DNA of 59,067 nucleotides from positions 1-59,067 of the forward strand of contig CACVAP010000102.1 in NCBI GenBank assembly GCA_902727895.1, written 5' to 3'. The position numbers and the translations under genes are program-made. A model generated the notes under the pieces. It did no database searches. It worked only from the letters and a program-made list of their open reading frames with translations, and was not told where the DNA came from. The DNA comes from an uncultured Sulfurovum sp. Its GTDB lineage: Bacteria; Campylobacterota; Campylobacteria; Campylobacterales; Sulfurovaceae. Below, piece after piece: positions 2,412 through 11,147 of this stretch (its first letter is position 1; every line of letters starts with the position of its first letter).

Positions 2412-2846
2412 TTATTCTGTTCTAATAATTTGATTCACAAAAATCTTATCTTCTTTATCTTTCATAATAATTCTATCTCCATCATGAAGTCCTAATGTAC
2501 TGATAGTATATTTATTTCCAGAAAAAGATACTTCATCATTATCCTCATCATCATCAATAATACGAGACACTGTAACTTTCACTGGTGAGTTTTTCTCTAA
2601 GAGAATACCCTCAAATATTATTTCTTTATTCTCTTCTATAAAAATAACTGTATCAATAACATTGTCTTCTTTACCTCTTTGACTTTTTTCTTTAATTTTT
2701 TGTAATTCCAAATCTAGATCAATGGTAATTATTGTTGCTTCTTCTATTTCTATTTTAGTAACATTACTTTCGGCTTCTTTCGCACATAAAGTACTTATAC
2801 TTAGTAAGCTATAAGCCGTTAAAAGTATCATAAAACTTTGTTTCAT
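2412..2846 (-). CDS. Secreted acidic protein of unknown function
   Basis: I place the start at the second ATG (MKQSF...), because AAGGAA sits directly against the first ATG but six bases before the second. The protein has about 144 residues with a signal peptide (hydrophobic through about residue 19, likely cleaved after LCA). The mature part is rich in Glu, Asp and Ile, with short strand-like repeats and a DDDEDND cluster, and no recognisable catalytic motif. It follows the XRE-family regulator gene by 15 bases on the same strand, so the two are likely one transcript. It may be a periplasmic partner of the divergent CHAT operon, but only position supports that. Confidence 0.6.
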   Translation of the reverse strand: MKQSFMILLTAYSLLSISTLCAKEAESNVTKIEIEEATIITIDLDLELQKIKEKSQRGKEDNVIDTVIFIEENKEIIFEGILLEKNSPVKVTVSRIIDDDEDNDEVSFSGNKYTISTLGLHDGDRIIMKDKEDKIFVNQIIRTE

Positions 2847-2861
2847 TGTCATTTCCTTGTA

Positions 2862-3566
2862 TTATAAGTTATAGATTCGTTCTAGCATATTATGATCTAT
2901 TTTTAGTTGTACCGTACTATAGTCACCTAAAACCTCTTTGGCTTCTTCATAAGCTAATTTAACTCTAGAACAAAATCCAAAGCTTAAAAGTTCATTGTTG
3001 AGTGCATTCACTTTTGAGATACGTGAAAAAGGAAATGCATTGTAAGTAATACGATTATTATCAAAAGTAATGGTATTAAGGTTTTTAGCATTATGTGTCT
3101 CTTTAATAATAAGTGATTGATTTTTTCCTATAAAAATCTTTCCTTTATTTTTATGTTTATCTTCTACTGTTCCATCAGTATATATAGTTGTTTCAGTTTG
3201 CCATATATCATCATTTTTCTGACTATGGTAACTGTAAAAGTACCATGTTCCTACAAGCTTATTTAATAATTCTTTATTATTCTCAAATATTTTTTCTGTT
3301 TCTTTAGACTGCGTCAAAAATTTATCTATTTGTTCAGCTGTTTTAATATTGTCATTTTCAAAAATTTCTGTAGGAATGTTATATGCATGACAAATAGCAT
3401 AAAGATGATACTTACGTAGTTTTCCATTGCTATAGTTTTGTATTTGGGAAACCAATGCTGGGCTTATTTCTAATTTTCTTGCAATATCTTTTGTTGATAA
3501 ACTTAAAGACTTAATAACATATTGTAGTCTCTCTTCTAAATAATGTAACGTATTATCAGACTCCAC
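2862..3566 (-). CDS. XRE-family helix-turn-helix regulator with C-terminal sensor-like domain
   Basis: The start is GTG at 3566, five bases after AAGGAA. Residues about 8-70 form an XRE/Cro helix-turn-helix (STKDIARKLEISPALVSQIQ...), closed by a NIPTEIF segment typical of the fold. Residues about 100-234 form an alternating strand-rich region beginning LVGTWYFYSYHS, which looks like a small beta-barrel or lipocalin-like ligand domain; I do not recognise the family. It is transcribed away from the CsgG/CHAT operon across a ~130-bp intergenic region with phased ATTTAC repeats, which makes it the natural candidate regulator of both directions. Confidence 0.75.
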   Translation of the reverse strand: MESDNTLHYLEERLQYVIKSLSLSTKDIARKLEISPALVSQIQNYSNGKLRKYHLYAICHAYNIPTEIFENDNIKTAEQIDKFLTQSKETEKIFENNKELLNKLVGTWYFYSYHSQKNDDIWQTETTIYTDGTVEDKHKNKGKIFIGKNQSLIIKETHNAKNLNTITFDNNRITYNAFPFSRISKVNALNNELLSFGFCSRVKLAYEEAKEVLGDYSTVQLKIDHNMLERIYNL

Positions 3567-3592
3567 AGCATTTCCTTTTACCTTATTTTATG

Positions 3593-3690
3593 ATTATAAC
3601 CATAGATATTATATTTACTTCTTATTTACCAATATAGTCAATAAATTTACTAAAAATTTATAAAGTATTTACCTAAGTTATTTATATAAT
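3593..3690. promoter_or_regulatory. Divergent promoter region with 11-bp-phased ATTTAC repeats
   Basis: Four exact ATTTAC hexamers start at 3613, 3624, 3645 and 3667 and an ATTTAT at 3656. Successive offsets are 11, 21, 11 and 11, so all sit on one face of the helix. A minus-strand TATAAT (3598-3593) faces the XRE gene and a plus-strand TATAAT (3685-3690) faces the CsgG-like gene. The array lies between them, about -84 to -25 relative to the plus start. It may be an operator with several protomers or a phased-tract bend. Confidence 0.5.
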
Positions 3691-3725
3691 GGTTGATAAG
3701 AAATCAAAAAATTGAGGGAATAATC

Positions 3726-4496
3726 ATGAAAAAGAAGTTAACAGTTAAATTAGGATTCATAAGTTTACTAACAGTCTCAGTTATAAGTGGATGTACAAAC
3801 TCCTTAACACCAGCCGTAGTAAGCTCTGGTAAAGGTGGTGTTACAGTAGCTAAGAACACCGTAGAATACATTTCATGTAAAGCATCAACAGGAAAAAAAT
3901 TAACTGTTTCAAAAGTCAAATGTAAAGCAATAGGATGCAAAGAACAACCCCAACTGAATGGAAATGCACAAGTATTACTCGCAATGATGGGGAAAGATAC
4001 AGCAAACTTCTCTGAAATAGGTAATGGACTATCCAATATGCTACAAACCTCGTTAGATAAAACAGGATGTTTTGAAGTACTAGACAGAGAAACTATGGAA
4101 ACCCTACGTCAAGAGATGACATTAGCAGGTAAAACAATGAAACTACAAAGTGCTGATATCTTAATAACAGGTGCAATTACCAGTGTTAACCTTTCTAAAA
4201 GTAAAAGCTCCTTTCTTGGTTTTAATAAAAAAAGTAAAGTAGCAAAACTAGGTATGGATATGAAAGTGATAGATATAGACAGTTCAAAAGTAGTACTTTC
4301 ACAAGACTATTCAGCTGAGTCAGGTAAAACTAATTATGCTTATATCTCTGATGGATATAAAGGTTCTACCAGTGGACTTGCTGATTCTAGTATGGAAGAA
4401 GTGGCTAGGGACATTATTAATAGATTGACTTATGATATTGTCAAAAAATTTGCTGTAGGTCACTACAAAATTAAAACAAAAGTCATAGAAAACTAA
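3726..4496 (+). CDS. CsgG-like outer-membrane lipoprotein
   Basis: The start is the ATG at 3726 (MKKKLTVK...) with GAGGGAAT upstream. A TTG-initiated extension to 3693 lacks a ribosome binding site. The N-terminus is a lipoprotein signal peptide ending in the lipobox VISGC. The body resembles the CsgG family: a nucleotide-like alpha/beta region with FSEIGNGLSNMLQTSLDKTGCFEVLDR (residues about 95-121), then ADILITGAITSVNL and a strand pair with VIDIDSSKVV. Family members form outer-membrane pores (curli export) or act as periplasmic lipoproteins in other systems. No curli subunit genes are nearby. It is the first gene of a four-gene operon ending in a TPR-CHAT protein, with a 21-base gap to the next gene. 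Confidence 0.75.
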   Translation: MKKKLTVKLGFISLLTVSVISGCTNSLTPAVVSSGKGGVTVAKNTVEYISCKASTGKKLTVSKVKCKAIGCKEQPQLNGNAQVLLAMMGKDTANFSEIGNGLSNMLQTSLDKTGCFEVLDRETMETLRQEMTLAGKTMKLQSADILITGAITSVNLSKSKSSFLGFNKKSKVAKLGMDMKVIDIDSSKVVLSQDYSAESGKTNYAYISDGYKGSTSGLADSSMEEVARDIINRLTYDIVKKFAVGHYKIKTKVIEN

Positions 4497-4517
4497 AGAT
4501 AAGTTAAAGGGATACTT

Positions 4518-5315
4518 ATGCATAGTAAAAAAACAACCTGTACTCGCTGTGATAAGAACAATAATTCCAATAATAATTTTTGTATCTATTGTGGAATAAA
4601 ACTTGTTAAGGAGAAGAAAAAAATAAAAGAAGAGGAAGTAAGTCCGAAGAATGCTAATTATAATAACATACGAAATAACTATGATGGTCTTTTTATTTCT
4701 CTTTTATCAAAAGTAGCTAAAGTTGATGGGGGAATTAATCCACTAGAAGCAGAAGCTTTGGGAAAGGTATTTGATGAGTTAAGTAGATTTAGACAAGATA
4801 TTTTTAATATTCGAGATATTTATAAACAAATTTTGACTAATGAAAAAGACAAACTTGATAATGTAATTGACATATGTAATGCTTTAGTATGTTTAAAGAT
4901 TACTAACTATGACAAAATCAGTTTTATCCAATCACTTTTGACTCTCTCCTATATTAATGAGTCAATTAATCATCACAATGAAAATTTAATTATTAAAATT
5001 ATCGTTTTTTTAGATATTGACTTTTCATTTTATCTGAATATTAAATCAGAGTTTGAACCTCAGCAGAAAACAGAAGATTCAAGCTTTACAGGAAAGCATT
5101 TAAGCCTTGCAGAGTGTTATAATATTTTAGAGGTCACAAATAATGAATCTCATCAATCCATAAAACAGAGTTATCGAAAAATGGTGAGAAATTATCATGC
5201 TGATATATTGTCGAGCAAAGATTTACCTAGTGATATGCTTGGCTATGCTGAAGAGAAATTAAAAAAAATTAATAGAGCCTATGAGATATTGAAACAACAT
5301 AAAGGAATTAAATAA
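4518..5315 (+). CDS. Zinc-ribbon / TerB / J-domain protein with HAD in place of HPD
   Basis: The 265-residue protein has three parts. Cys8/Cys11/Cys22/Cys25 form an N-terminal zinc ribbon. Residues about 55-175 (LLSKVAKVDGGINPLEAEALGKVF...) match the TerB/DjlA helical domain. Residues about 193-262 form a J-domain (LAECYNILEVTNNESHQSIKQSYRKMVRNYHADI...). The order TerB then J-domain is that of DjlA, with the zinc ribbon replacing DjlA's membrane helix. The Hsp70-activating HPD motif is H227-A228-D229, so stimulation of DnaK may be reduced or lost. AAAGGGATACTT precedes the ATG. The gap to the next gene is two bases. It is cytoplasmic by sequence and may recruit or regulate the membrane and exported partners of the operon. 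Confidence 0.75.
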   Translation: MHSKKTTCTRCDKNNNSNNNFCIYCGIKLVKEKKKIKEEEVSPKNANYNNIRNNYDGLFISLLSKVAKVDGGINPLEAEALGKVFDELSRFRQDIFNIRDIYKQILTNEKDKLDNVIDICNALVCLKITNYDKISFIQSLLTLSYINESINHHNENLIIKIIVFLDIDFSFYLNIKSEFEPQQKTEDSSFTGKHLSLAECYNILEVTNNESHQSIKQSYRKMVRNYHADILSSKDLPSDMLGYAEEKLKKINRAYEILKQHKGIK

Positions 5316-5317
5316 TT

Positions 5318-5809
5318 ATGAAAATTTTACTTATTATTATATTTTTGTTAATCTTCTATATTTGGCTATGGAAAAAACTTATTAATGCTGAAGAAGTTTA
5401 TTTAGAAAGTCAAATCTGTCAAGCCTGTAACCATAAGAACATAAATGAAGCTATCTTTTGTGCAAACTGTGGTAAAAAAATTACTCAAAAAGTAGAAAAA
5501 AAACAAGGTATACTCATTACTATTGGACTGGGTCTTCTTTTCAATGCTTTATCAAGTGCTTTTATTACAGTAGTATGGGAACTCTATTCTTACCATCAAG
5601 TGTTGAGACGTTTCCAAGATTACTTTTATTATAATTACTATTATAGTTATTTCATAGATTCTCACACTTTACTAAGTTTAGCATTGGTTCTGACAGGAAG
5701 ATACCTACTAATTAAAAACGAAAAATATTCTTTTAAACGGTTAAGTTTGTTAACCTTAACTATAACATTTTGGTTCAACCTATTATACTTTTTTACTTTA
5801 TTCATCTAA
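5318..5809 (+). CDS. Zinc-ribbon membrane protein
   Basis: The protein has 163 residues. A first membrane helix occupies residues 2-19, then a zinc ribbon with Cys34/Cys37 and Cys48/Cys51 (CQAC...CANC), then about three more hydrophobic helices, with a Tyr-rich loop (YYFNYYYSYF-like) between the second and third. The ribbon resembles that of the upstream J-domain protein, so the two may interact or share an origin. The ribosome binding site AAAGGA lies inside the end of the upstream gene, indicating coupled translation. I do not recognise a family; a membrane anchor or scaffold for the operon is an inference. Confidence 0.6.
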   Translation: MKILLIIIFLLIFYIWLWKKLINAEEVYLESQICQACNHKNINEAIFCANCGKKITQKVEKKQGILITIGLGLLFNALSSAFITVVWELYSYHQVLRRFQDYFYYNYYYSYFIDSHTLLSLALVLTGRYLLIKNEKYSFKRLSLLTLTITFWFNLLYFFTLFI

Positions 5810-5822
5810 GGGAGCATTTTCT

Positions 5823-8375
5823 TTGAAATTTTTTATTATTTTACTGCTCATCTTGACAATATCTCATACAAAAGAATTAAACATTGCTACAGCCAATTTA
5901 ACAACGGAAGAGATGAAGCGTTTTAAAGGAAACAAAGCATTTAGCTTAGAAGAGCGAAAAAGAATAGTTGAAAGAATAAATCATAATACGGCTAAGCTTC
6001 TAGGATTACAAAAGTCAAAAAGAGCATGGAATAATATTCTAAAAAATCAAGTTCAACAAGCAGTAAAATTGGGTATGGTTAATGAGACTTTTTGGGCTAT
6101 AACCCTACTTGAAAATGCTTTGAAAATTACTGAAGCAAAGATGAGTGATAATAAAAGAATCTTGCTCAAACTCTATTCTGACCTTGGTTCTATGTACATT
6201 TTAGATACTCAGTATCCTAAAGGTATTAAATATACTAAAAAAACAATTCAACTTTATAAAACTATTAATCGTCCTCCTCCATTCCTTCTACAAGCATCTT
6301 ATCATTACTTAGGTTTTGCCTATCGAGGATTAGGAGATTATCAAGAAGCATTAAAATATTATCAACAAGCTCTCTCATTAGCTAAAAGTAATCCTTCAGC
6401 AAGAGTAAGTAGCTATGCTGCATTGGCAGACCTTTCCAATGAATTAAAAGACTATAAAAAATCTATCTCTTATAGTCAGAAGGCTCTAGAACTTACTCAA
6501 CATAATCCTATTTTTTCTAATGCTACTTATATGAACCTTTCGTACTCTTTACTCAAATTAAAGCAGTATAAAAAGGCATTACAACATGCTAAATCAGCCT
6601 CTAATACAGCTAAAAATATTTGGGGTGAAGAGCATATAAATATGGATCCTTACTATGTCTTACTAGGTGTCATATATACAAAACTAGAAGATTATGATAA
6701 AGCATTAAGCTATTTAAAGCGTTCTATAAATCTATTAATAAAAATAGATAATAAACCTCTTGCTCTAGCCTCACGATACCAACTTTTATCACAAACCTAC
6801 TCTAAAATTAAAAAAGCTAAAAAAGCTTATACTTCTATAGATAAAGGTTTTACTCTTTTTAATAAAGCACGTTCTCAATATTTTGGACAAGTAAATCACT
6901 TTCATAAAAGAAAACTCTCTCTTCAACAAATAGATTTTATTGCTACCTTGATGGAAGTTAGTTTTGAGACAAAACAAGGAAAAGAAAAGACCTTCAACCG
7001 ATGGCTAAATTACAAAAGATCAATTTTTGATATAGAAGACAGTTTAAAACTTTTGCATACGAATACTAGTGATCTAAAAGTAAAGCACTATATAGATTCA
7101 TTATTTACAAATCAACGAGCCTTAGCAAGGCTTTCGCTGAATCCTCCAACAGAATTTCAAAAACTAGGAAATTATAATAAAAAAGTTAGAAAGATTAAAG
7201 AAGAGATTTCTAAAGAAGAAATATTTTTGACTCAAAAAATTTTATCTTTAGATAAAAAAGCAATTAACTATCAAGAAATTTCAACAATTTTAAAATCAGA
7301 TGAACTCTACATAGACTTCGCCAAAATGGAAGAAAATTATTACATCTTCACTTTAAATAAACAAAATAATTTTACTTTTCAAAAACTGACTAAAAATGAA
7401 ACGGAGCAAATAGATAAAATAATTATACGAATTAGAGAAGATGCTGGTAAACATGATCATACAAGAATCTCTCAAAAGCGTTATACTAAACTTTATAATT
7501 TAATTATAAAAAAATTAGATATTCAAAATAAAACCTCTCTTATTATCTCTCCTGATGGACTTCTTGGACTTATTCCTTTTGAAGCTTTTTATGATGGAGA
7601 ACACTATTTAGTAGAAAAAACAGATATCCGATATATTCCTTCAGGAAAAGAGTTCGTCAAGCTTTATCAAAATAAGACTACTCCAAAAAATCAAAACGTT
7701 GTACTCTTCTCAGAAGTAGATTTCAATAAGTCAAACAGTACTCAAACCAACAGAGGAAGTGTTTTTGATAAGCTTGAAGCAAACTGGGCTAAATTAAAGT
7801 TTTCCAAATATGAAACAGAAGTAATTAAAAAAGTCTTTAAAGAGAACGTAAAATACTTTTTGGAAAACAATGCTAGTGAAAAGAATTTATTGAGCGTTAA
7901 TGCACCAAAAATACTGCATCTTTCAACACATGGCTTTTCTCCTAAAAATAATAAAACCATAAATCCTATGGAGAAATCATTTATATTACTTAGTGGAGCG
8001 AATGCATCAATACGTAATGAAAGAGGAGATGGTATCATCTCTGGACTAGAGTTAGCAGGCTTAAATCTTAAAGGTACTGAATTAGTTGTACTCTCTGCTT
8101 GTCAAACAGGTGTCGGAAAAGTAGAAGAGACCGAAGGAATTTCAGGATTAAGCAAAGCCTTCATTAAAGCTGGAGCCAAACATATTGTCATGAGTCTTTG
8201 GAATGTTGATGATGAGGCAACTTCTAAACTTATGAGATACTTTTATCAAAATATTCAAAGTGGAGACAATTATACCATTGCACTCAATAAAGCTAAACGT
8301 TCTATGATAAAAAGCAAAAACCTTAGAGAATCTCATCCTTACTATTGGAGTGGGTTTATAGGAAGTGGTTATTAG
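5823..8375 (+). CDS. Exported TPR-CHAT caspase-like protease
   Basis: The start is TTG at 5823, eight or nine bases after AGGGAG. The 850-residue protein has a signal peptide (hydrophobic to about residue 15). A tetratricopeptide array spans about residues 95-330 (repeats such as YKGIKYTKKTIQLY and YQEALKYYQQALSLA), followed by a helical linker. A CHAT domain runs from about residue 470 to the end. Its catalytic dyad is visible: His703 in HLSTHG and Cys760 in VVLSACQTG, followed by the family's AGAKHIVMSLWNVDD and SHPYYWSGFIGSGY. CHAT proteases (separase/caspase-like) usually cleave partner proteins after a trigger. The signal peptide and the CsgG-like lipoprotein in the operon point to action outside the cytoplasm. 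The substrate is unknown. Confidence 0.85.
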   Translation: MKFFIILLLILTISHTKELNIATANLTTEEMKRFKGNKAFSLEERKRIVERINHNTAKLLGLQKSKRAWNNILKNQVQQAVKLGMVNETFWAITLLENALKITEAKMSDNKRILLKLYSDLGSMYILDTQYPKGIKYTKKTIQLYKTINRPPPFLLQASYHYLGFAYRGLGDYQEALKYYQQALSLAKSNPSARVSSYAALADLSNELKDYKKSISYSQKALELTQHNPIFSNATYMNLSYSLLKLKQYKKALQHAKSASNTAKNIWGEEHINMDPYYVLLGVIYTKLEDYDKALSYLKRSINLLIKIDNKPLALASRYQLLSQTYSKIKKAKKAYTSIDKGFTLFNKARSQYFGQVNHFHKRKLSLQQIDFIATLMEVSFETKQGKEKTFNRWLNYKRSIFDIEDSLKLLHTNTSDLKVKHYIDSLFTNQRALARLSLNPPTEFQKLGNYNKKVRKIKEEISKEEIFLTQKILSLDKKAINYQEISTILKSDELYIDFAKMEENYYIFTLNKQNNFTFQKLTKNETEQIDKIIIRIREDAGKHDHTRISQKRYTKLYNLIIKKLDIQNKTSLIISPDGLLGLIPFEAFYDGEHYLVEKTDIRYIPSGKEFVKLYQNKTTPKNQNVVLFSEVDFNKSNSTQTNRGSVFDKLEANWAKLKFSKYETEVIKKVFKENVKYFLENNASEKNLLSVNAPKILHLSTHGFSPKNNKTINPMEKSFILLSGANASIRNERGDGIISGLELAGLNLKGTELVVLSACQTGVGKVEETEGISGLSKAFIKAGAKHIVMSLWNVDDEATSKLMRYFYQNIQSGDNYTIALNKAKRSMIKSKNLRESHPYYWSGFIGSGY

Positions 8376-9809: not shown

Positions 9810-11147
9810 TTATCTCATTCGATAATATCCATCAGGATTATAAATAAGATAGCTATCAGCTGGACTCAAACGTGGAAGGTACATGAACGGTTTTCCTTCT
9901 TTGTCTATTAGCTCTTTTGAAATAGCATAAGGGTTATCATAAGACTCTACTTCCGTTTCACCTTCTTCTTTGTGCATAGGGTCTACTCTTACCGACTTGT
10001 CTATAATACGCAGTACAATATTATTGACCCATTTTAACTTCTGTGCCTCAATAGCAAACTCTTGCCAATTACCTTTTGATGAGTGTGCATACATCTGTTT
10101 AATGAATTCTTCGGATGTAAGATTCATTTTTTTAGCCACAGGTAAACCAAAAATATTCCATACTTCTTCTAATGTTTCGTACTGTTCTCTTTCTTCTGTT
10201 AAGTTTGTCATCTCATTGTAATGATAAGTCATTGCTTGATGATGTAAAAGAATAGCATGAGGATAAGCATACGACTTCTCAGCCAACGTTACAATAACAG
10301 CTGCCATAGACGCTGCTAACGATTTTAAAACAACATAAACTGGAGCTTCACTACTGTCTATGGTTCGTAAAATAAGGTTTCCTGCCATAACAGCACCACC
10401 TTCTGAACGATCAATCACAAGGAAAATAGGCTTTTTATGATCTTTATTATTAAAATAGTTAATCTGCTTACTAATACTTAAAGCCATCTCAGCTGTAATC
10501 ATTCCATTTAACTCAACACGTCTATCAGAAATGGTAAGGGTCTGATTGTCTTCACTTAAAGGGTTGTCCAAGTAAGTTACTTTTTCCGTTATGTATACTT
10601 CTCTGGTTTTCTTACTCTTTAAAAAAGCCAATTCTGAATCTAGCTTCACTTGTTTAAACTCTATAGCTGCTCTCTCTAATTCTATTTCATTCAGTAATTG
10701 TTTTGCTTCTATTTCAGCTAAATTTGCTTTATATGCCAATTTTGACAACAATTGTTCTTGCTCTTTTCTCTCTTTGTCATATTTTTTCTCTTCTTCATAA
10801 GCCTTCTTTTCATCTTCCATTCTCTGAAGTTCAAACTTCTCAGACAAAATTTCTTTATCCCATTTAAGTTTTTGAAGTTCTTGTAACAACGCTGTATGTG
10901 TACTTTTTAGACCCTCTTCTGTCAAAGTATTTTCCAGTGCTATCTTTTTTTGTCTATTTTCCAAAATTTCCATCTCATCCGATGATTCAGATTCATTATC
11001 CTTTTTACTTACCTTAACCTCTTCACTTGTCTTAACTTCCGATGAAGTCTTAGTAGGAAGAACTTTTTTCTCTTCTGTTGTTGCTTCATCAGAACAGCCC
11101 ATAAATGTCAGCATACAAACACCAACTACAATTAACTTAAAACGCAT
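9810..11147 (-). CDS. Lipoprotein with ClpP/SppA-like serine protease domain
   Basis: The 445-residue protein begins with a lipoprotein signal peptide (TFMGC, Cys18), then an acidic linker and a long coiled coil (about 60-185), then a crotonase-fold ClpP-like domain (about 195-385). SDRRVELNGMITAEMA corresponds to the ClpP DRIIFLGG...EMA start, S280 in LAASMAA to the nucleophile, and H303 in AILLHHQ to the MxHQ histidine. The position of the ClpP aspartate appears changed (around AHSSKGN, 354-360), so the triad may be incomplete. It would face the periplasm, unlike ClpP, and has no visible AAA+ partner. AAGGATAAAAG precedes the ATG. A rhodanese lipoprotein gene lies 38 bases upstream on the same strand. 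Confidence 0.75.
   Translation of the reverse strand: MRFKLIVVGVCMLTFMGCSDEATTEEKKVLPTKTSSEVKTSEEVKVSKKDNESESSDEMEILENRQKKIALENTLTEEGLKSTHTALLQELQKLKWDKEILSEKFELQRMEDEKKAYEEEKKYDKERKEQEQLLSKLAYKANLAEIEAKQLLNEIELERAAIEFKQVKLDSELAFLKSKKTREVYITEKVTYLDNPLSEDNQTLTISDRRVELNGMITAEMALSISKQINYFNNKDHKKPIFLVIDRSEGGAVMAGNLILRTIDSSEAPVYVVLKSLAASMAAVIVTLAEKSYAYPHAILLHHQAMTYHYNEMTNLTEEREQYETLEEVWNIFGLPVAKKMNLTSEEFIKQMYAHSSKGNWQEFAIEAQKLKWVNNIVLRIIDKSVRVDPMHKEEGETEVESYDNPYAISKELIDKEGKPFMYLPRLSPADSYLIYNPDGYYRMR

Follow-up and report, generated by a model that had tools for sequence, protein, structure and literature searches.

The window analysed here, one entire 59-kb contig (59,067 nucleotides) from genome G000 of a Sulfurovum-type deep-sea sulfur bacterium, carries at 2412-8375 a six-gene locus in which an exported-looking homologue of TPR-CHAT proteases lies close to an XRE-family protein with a predicted lipocalin-like domain. 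Judged from sequence comparison, the regulator family and the exported CHAT protease are what is kept together, and they form a recurring core. We tentatively read the locus as an envelope proteolysis module that stress would induce and whose parts are exchangeable, and hold that reading with somewhat less than even confidence. The comparison set comprised 149 related genomes, mostly fragmented metagenome assemblies, and because of this fragmentation a neighbour missing from a relative often means that a contig has ended. The fetched stretches contain 39 regulator open reading frames (ORFs); for 20 of these a CHAT ORF lies no more than 5 kb away, and for 7 an exported caspase does, with regulator-CHAT pairs occurring both co-directionally and divergently. 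The initial annotation had proposed an envelope CHAT system that loss of its gene neighbourhood or of its catalytic dyad elsewhere would refute, and the regulator-CHAT link and the dyad withstand that test. The system is further upheld by a dedicated regulator and by export, but its four-gene operon is not supported as a conserved set: it was found in none of the 149 relatives, and the full six-gene combination was seen once. The XRE gene, which the annotation had treated as no more than a regulator, has proved the best-conserved partner.

The CHAT gene (5823-8375, plus strand) begins with TTG, 8-9 bases downstream of AAGGGAG. Its CHAT domain spans residues 554-849 (E 2.9e-67; 227.6 bits against the curated PF12770 cut-off of 24), and TPR repeats that also exceed the Pfam cut-off lie N-terminal of it (E 9.8e-25). 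The dyad named in the annotation, His703 and Cys760, is present, and each residue is kept in 17 of 17 homologues covering its site, the window protein included. An export signal had been proposed as well, and the window protein does begin with a short hydrophobic stretch, MKFFIILLLILTISHT. Homologues show the same tendency: five have Sec-type N-termini (L058, L059, L060, L061, L071), four have lipoprotein signals with lipobox cysteines (L056, L057, L072, L105), and the sole two without a hydrophobic N-terminus (L065, L066) come from the sister genus g11. Because these homologues carry export signals, an extracytoplasmic location is supported beyond a single prediction, and the window CHAT protein is likely to reside outside the cytoplasm. 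An exported-looking CHAT protein also occurs outside the phylum, on a Calothrix plasmid, where the copy begins with a hydrophobic segment. Homologues at E 1e-40 are present in 16 of the 149 relatives, and G000 itself holds two further copies, an intact one with no adjoining regulator (G000:C86:183642) and a broken one. At the paralogue locus G000:C86:3418-5645 (L072), the regulator and its small exported neighbour SEC are intact and the CHAT gene has three in-frame stops; in G043, the CHAT gene (L066, at 8465) is broken by a TAG immediately 3' of the SACETG catalytic motif.

The regulator gene (2862-3566, minus strand) encodes a protein whose AlphaFold2 model, built with 25 homologues (predicted local distance difference test, pLDDT, 88), joins a Cro-like helix-turn-helix (HTH; residues ~1-75) to an eight-stranded barrel (~98-204). 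Foldseek matched the model to lipocalins (4.9e-4) and its HTH to phage 434 Cro, while VIA-align 2, run on the same predicted structure, returned Z scores of 10-12.8 to designed beta barrels and avidins, the avidin matches standing at Z ~10 over ~90 residues. The eight-stranded closed barrel that defines lipocalins and calycins is thus found in the C-terminal domain, in a predicted model only, and no Pfam family covers it. Because a Cro-like HTH is joined to a predicted lipocalin/avidin-type barrel, we think the XRE protein is likely a one-component sensor of a small ligand. The family is present in 22 of the 149 relatives and was not found in a plasmid search; one member with 50% identity (L130) comes from a contig carrying the label Crocinitomix (Bacteroidota), which was probably misbinned, unless the gene was transferred. 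Nine bases separate the regulator gene from SEC (2412-2852, minus strand), which encodes a small, exported, beta-rich protein that has no Pfam family. Seven homologues of SEC were found, most with a lipobox, and they lie directly downstream of the XRE gene in G025, L058, L072, L105, L106 and L107. Profile comparisons were too weak (32%, 56% over 22 columns, 12%) to unite SEC in one family with F12, a small exported protein encoded 3' of other CHAT genes, and with the lipoprotein of the caspase loci described below.

Around the core, three layouts recur. In one, regulator, CHAT and F12 genes form a single operon (L060, L061, L063-L066, with L074, L110 and L111 cut by contig ends). In another, regulator and SEC face the CHAT gene, as in the window, L072 and L105, and in L058 with a Sel1 lipoprotein gene between; variants of this layout face a small lipoprotein gene with no CHAT (L106, L107) or, in G025 (L055), a CsgG-like gene 2 bases after which the contig ends. 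The small lipoproteins at the place expected for CHAT (L106 4441-4935, L107 1964-2419) have a GxW start resembling the regulator's barrel domain. In a third layout (L110, L114, L118, L124), the regulator adjoins genes for an exported caspase, for a lipoprotein with a GGNPEV motif and for outer-membrane-like proteins; one exported caspase near a regulator matches Peptidase_C14 at E 3.3e-27. These caspase loci, together with L061, make up a further system that shares the regulator family, combining an exported caspase (Peptidase_C14) and a lipoprotein with the GGNPEV motif with a ~60-residue exported GGNPEV protein, a large lipoprotein and an outer-membrane-like protein; L118 and L114 additionally have an OmpR-family regulator. 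In the regulator tree the window protein is sister to that of G025 and near L058 and L072, and in the CHAT tree the window CHAT joins the regulator-less L056 and L057, apart from the CHATs of L058, L071 and L072 (supports 99/97 and 100/99). The differing groupings show that parts have been exchanged.

A candidate regulatory element links several of these loci. Seven intergenic regions share no palindrome that could serve as an inverted-repeat operator for the XRE protein; a direct repeat was found instead, with the consensus TWYACYAA-N3-TWYACYAA derived from divergent intergenics and a period of 11 bp (GTAAA-N6-GTAAA on the other strand). In the window, a three-unit box on the plus strand at 3646-3675 (TTTACTAA-TTTATAAA-TTTACCTA, 21/24) ends 50 bp before the ATG of the CsgG-like gene, and a degenerate two-unit box (14/16) lies at 3614-3632 on the same strand. 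The former is the window's best three-unit match and was reached in 2 of 1000 intergenic shuffles; its equivalent in G025, the best box of that locus and likewise placed, scores 22/24 and was reached in none of 1000. Exact 11-bp pairs number 15 in 355 kb of regulator- or CHAT-linked DNA, with period 11 strongly preferred, against none in 202 kb from unlinked loci, none in the window's other 47 kb and about 0 in shuffles. In the whole G000 genome, exact pairs number 10 and those of the reversed pattern 2. At one mismatch or fewer, totals are not above control (26 versus 24), so the signal there lies in exact pairs alone. In genome tallies added by hand, box sites number 42 in the 22 regulator-bearing genomes and 30 in the 127 without the regulator, where the reversed control gives 18 and 62. 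Most of the sites between nth and ppiC, and most of the exact-pair excess in G000, are independent of the loci used for motif discovery.

Exact boxes stand 5' of an exported PpiC-type foldase gene in the nth|ppiC intergenic region of six genomes, and also 5' of genes for a BepA/LoiP-like M48 lipoprotein, exported TPR proteins, CHAT proteins and OmpR-family regulators. The nth|ppiC boxes (L237, L238, L239, L240, L241, L181) lie ~45-55 bp before the ppiC-type gene, and one of these six genomes lacks a detected XRE-lipocalin gene; the boxes mark a candidate envelope-stress regulon of the genus. We dropped the XRE protein as main binder of the box, given the box at nth|ppiC in G014, where no regulator of the XRE-lipocalin family was detected, and on OmpR-family genes. 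The latter carry the box or adjoin box-bearing loci. The pattern is the one associated with regulators of the CpxR/OmpR type, a direct-repeat box before envelope genes, with an 11-bp and not a 10-bp period. In E. coli, CpxR binds direct repeats of the form GTAAA-N5-GTAAA (PMC12802237). Most parsimoniously, the box would be bound by a putative OmpR/CpxR-type activator, and the XRE-lipocalin protein would act as a second, local layer.

The remaining genes belong to the plus-strand run. All six genes lie where the initial annotation placed them: two minus-strand genes (SEC and the regulator) face, across 159 bases, four plus-strand genes (3726-8375), and the gaps of 21, 2 and 13 bases within the four are as the annotation stated. 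The first of these four encodes the CsgG-superfamily lipoprotein (3726-4496), which starts at an ATG, with an upstream TTG at 3693 as a possible alternative. It matches PF03783 (CsgG) at 2.5e-20 (73.1 bits against a cut-off of 20.8) and has the lipobox ISGC with its cysteine at residue 23. A sequence comparison with the PDB gave no relevant match, and hits to 30S S2 look like chance. CsgG is the closest fold to its model in Foldseek (1.1e-9), which also matches PelC, FlgT and GNA1162, proteins that to our knowledge form no CsgG-type pores. The model (pLDDT 68) has one extended hairpin (145-183) and a second stretch (203-214) without a resolved hairpin, and in both regions E. coli CsgG is longer. 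CsgG is rare in the genus Sulfurovum: among the 149 relatives a close homologue was found only in G025 (75% identical), and a family-wide search of 175 genomes found the gene only in G000 and G025. No csgA-, csgE- or csgF-like genes are present among the neighbouring genes examined, so the partners of a curli system are not seen there.

The next gene (4518-5315) encodes a J-protein in which a zinc ribbon and a TerB-like middle part precede the J-domain (Pfam DnaJ, E 5.2e-12, above the cut-off); the DjlA model also matches, at 6.1e-23, under its own cut-off. In a motif alignment the canonical HPD reads HAD, as the earlier description of a modified J-protein implied. Because three relatives of the same architecture read HAD or HYD while a DjlA-like paralogue in G000 keeps HPD, loss of the motif is a trait of the subfamily. 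It is followed by a zinc-ribbon membrane protein (5318-5809) in which hydropathy places an N-terminal transmembrane segment, a ribbon at 34-54, to which matches are weak, and further transmembrane segments. The J/zinc-ribbon pair looks like a separate module, because relatives (G037, G056, G078) carry it without CHAT, and in the same-architecture relatives the gene after that of the J-protein encodes an Lcl_C domain together with a zinc ribbon, again with no CHAT. In L067, L068 and L069 a zinc-ribbon/TerB/J protein (HYD or HAD) precedes such a zinc-ribbon-Lcl_C protein, and in L067 the pair adjoins a VWA/metallopeptidase gene (DUF2201). Across the window and the 149 relatives, CsgG-like, J-protein and zinc-ribbon genes were found together with CHAT in the window alone. 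Both the CsgG-like gene and the J/zinc-ribbon pair look like locus-specific add-ons, not parts of the core. Two genes away from the CHAT operon, at 9810-11147 on the minus strand, a ClpP-type protease domain (8.9e-17) is encoded as part of a lipoprotein (lipobox FMGC), and it is unusual for a Clp-family protein to be exported.

If the locus is an envelope proteolysis module, a two-component response regulator would turn the operon on under envelope stress, alongside envelope foldase and protease genes, and the XRE-lipocalin protein would add a second, ligand-sensing layer and regulate its own gene. The CHAT protein would leave the cytoplasm through Sec and reside in the periplasm or at the outer membrane; there its TPR part would hold a partner or substrate and His703/Cys760 would cleave the held protein. 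We imagine the CsgG-like lipoprotein as a ring in the outer membrane that would serve as a pore or a scaffold, with the J/zinc-ribbon pair as an inner-membrane accessory facing the cytoplasm. Several points weigh against this picture. The boxes in the window itself are degenerate, with no exact pair among them, and Campylobacter-type promoters contain 11-bp periodic AT-rich signals that could inflate degenerate matches. The contrast of 15 exact pairs with 0 is partly circular, as the motif was derived from linked loci. The patchy occurrence of the system and its broken CHAT copies would also agree with a dispensable role or one in conflict.

A conflict role would make the exported CHAT a dormant killer or fratricidal effector of a regulated-death system, set off when a phage or competitor attacks the envelope. 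Such a role would suit not only the patchy distribution and the broken copies (three in-frame stops in the G000:C86 gene, one in L066) but also the several paralogues per genome and the swapped partners, and the sets of exported caspases that share the regulator family could act likewise. CHAT domains are frequent effectors of bacterial conflict systems (PMC10907252), and the available text of PMC3501461 has exported metacaspases proposed to act at the cell surface or on neighbours. We consider this explanation a serious rival, if an unlikely one: the locus contains neither a sensor NTPase nor a CRISPR or immunity gene, the linked box is found before housekeeping genes for envelope foldases and proteases as well, and PADLOC gave no meaningful match by which to identify a defence system, only weak HTH and TPR matches and chance-level ones (including Cas8a).

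It is also conceivable, if rather unlikely, that the operon arose by chance, when genes for the CsgG-like, J- and zinc-ribbon proteins came to lie between a long-standing regulator and a CHAT gene that is unrelated to it and with which they do not act. The complete set occurs in one genome, the J/zinc-ribbon pair stands alone elsewhere, and the window CHAT groups with the regulator-less L056 and L057 while its regulator groups with G025, near L058 and L072. Set against this are the common strand and short gaps of the four genes, the box and CsgG-like gene shared with G025 at the same place, and the zinc ribbons in two successive proteins. A secretion and processing line, in which the CsgG-like protein would serve as an outer-membrane pore of the curli type and the exported CHAT would trim its cargo or surface proteins, strikes us as highly doubtful. 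The closest fold of the CsgG-like protein and its one predicted extended hairpin would suit a pore, but the second hairpin is not resolved and both regions are short, PelC and FlgT have the same fold without such a pore, the operon has no csgA/E/F-like genes, and most CHAT loci lack CsgG.

The proposed stress-inducible module resembles several known systems in part. Craspase, whose Csx29 is the TPR-CHAT protein of type III-E CRISPR, shares the TPR arm, the CHAT domain and the His/Cys dyad; as far as the available text of PMC10028731 and PMC9729208 goes, it is activated by RNA inside the cell and cuts Csx30, whereas the CHAT protein of our locus is exported and none of the six genes matches gRAMP, Csx30 or the sigma factor. 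HetF of Anabaena, a CHAT namesake, is likewise a membrane-linked CHAT/TPR protein acting at the envelope, at the divisome (PMC8406250), but it differs in architecture, has one transmembrane segment and a role in cell division, and is accompanied by no such regulator or operon. Exported bacterial metacaspases share the caspase fold, a probable signal peptide and varied operons, but have a p20-type domain in place of CHAT, and the available text of PMC3501461 mentions no shared regulator or box. Among the accessory proteins, the CsgG-like lipoprotein has the Pfam domain, lipobox and closest fold of the curli channel but shorter membrane hairpins, no curli genes and a protease for company, and the J-protein has the TerB-like middle and C-terminal J-domain of DjlA but a zinc ribbon instead of a membrane anchor and HAD instead of HPD. 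The Cpx regulon likewise has GTAAA-N-GTAAA direct repeats on envelope foldase and protease genes, but with a period of 10 bp against 11 bp for the Sulfurovum candidate. As the initial annotation had supposed, no described system matches: beyond the PADLOC result, an open-access literature search, with subscription papers outside its scope, found no description of an exported CHAT with an XRE-lipocalin regulator.

Bacterial CHAT and caspase-type proteases are known chiefly for their part in immunity or cell death, as effectors inside the cell. A broader proposal, which we regard as rather unlikely, is that Sulfurovum has an envelope-stress regulon not made of known Campylobacterota components, one that would deploy exported CHAT and p20 caspase-fold proteases, each guarded by a lipocalin-fold one-component sensor of its own, and thus use a caspase-type enzyme for periplasmic stress. 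If true, an exported CHAT family with an undescribed HTH-lipocalin regulator and an apparent envelope-stress-type box would represent a second job for such proteases.

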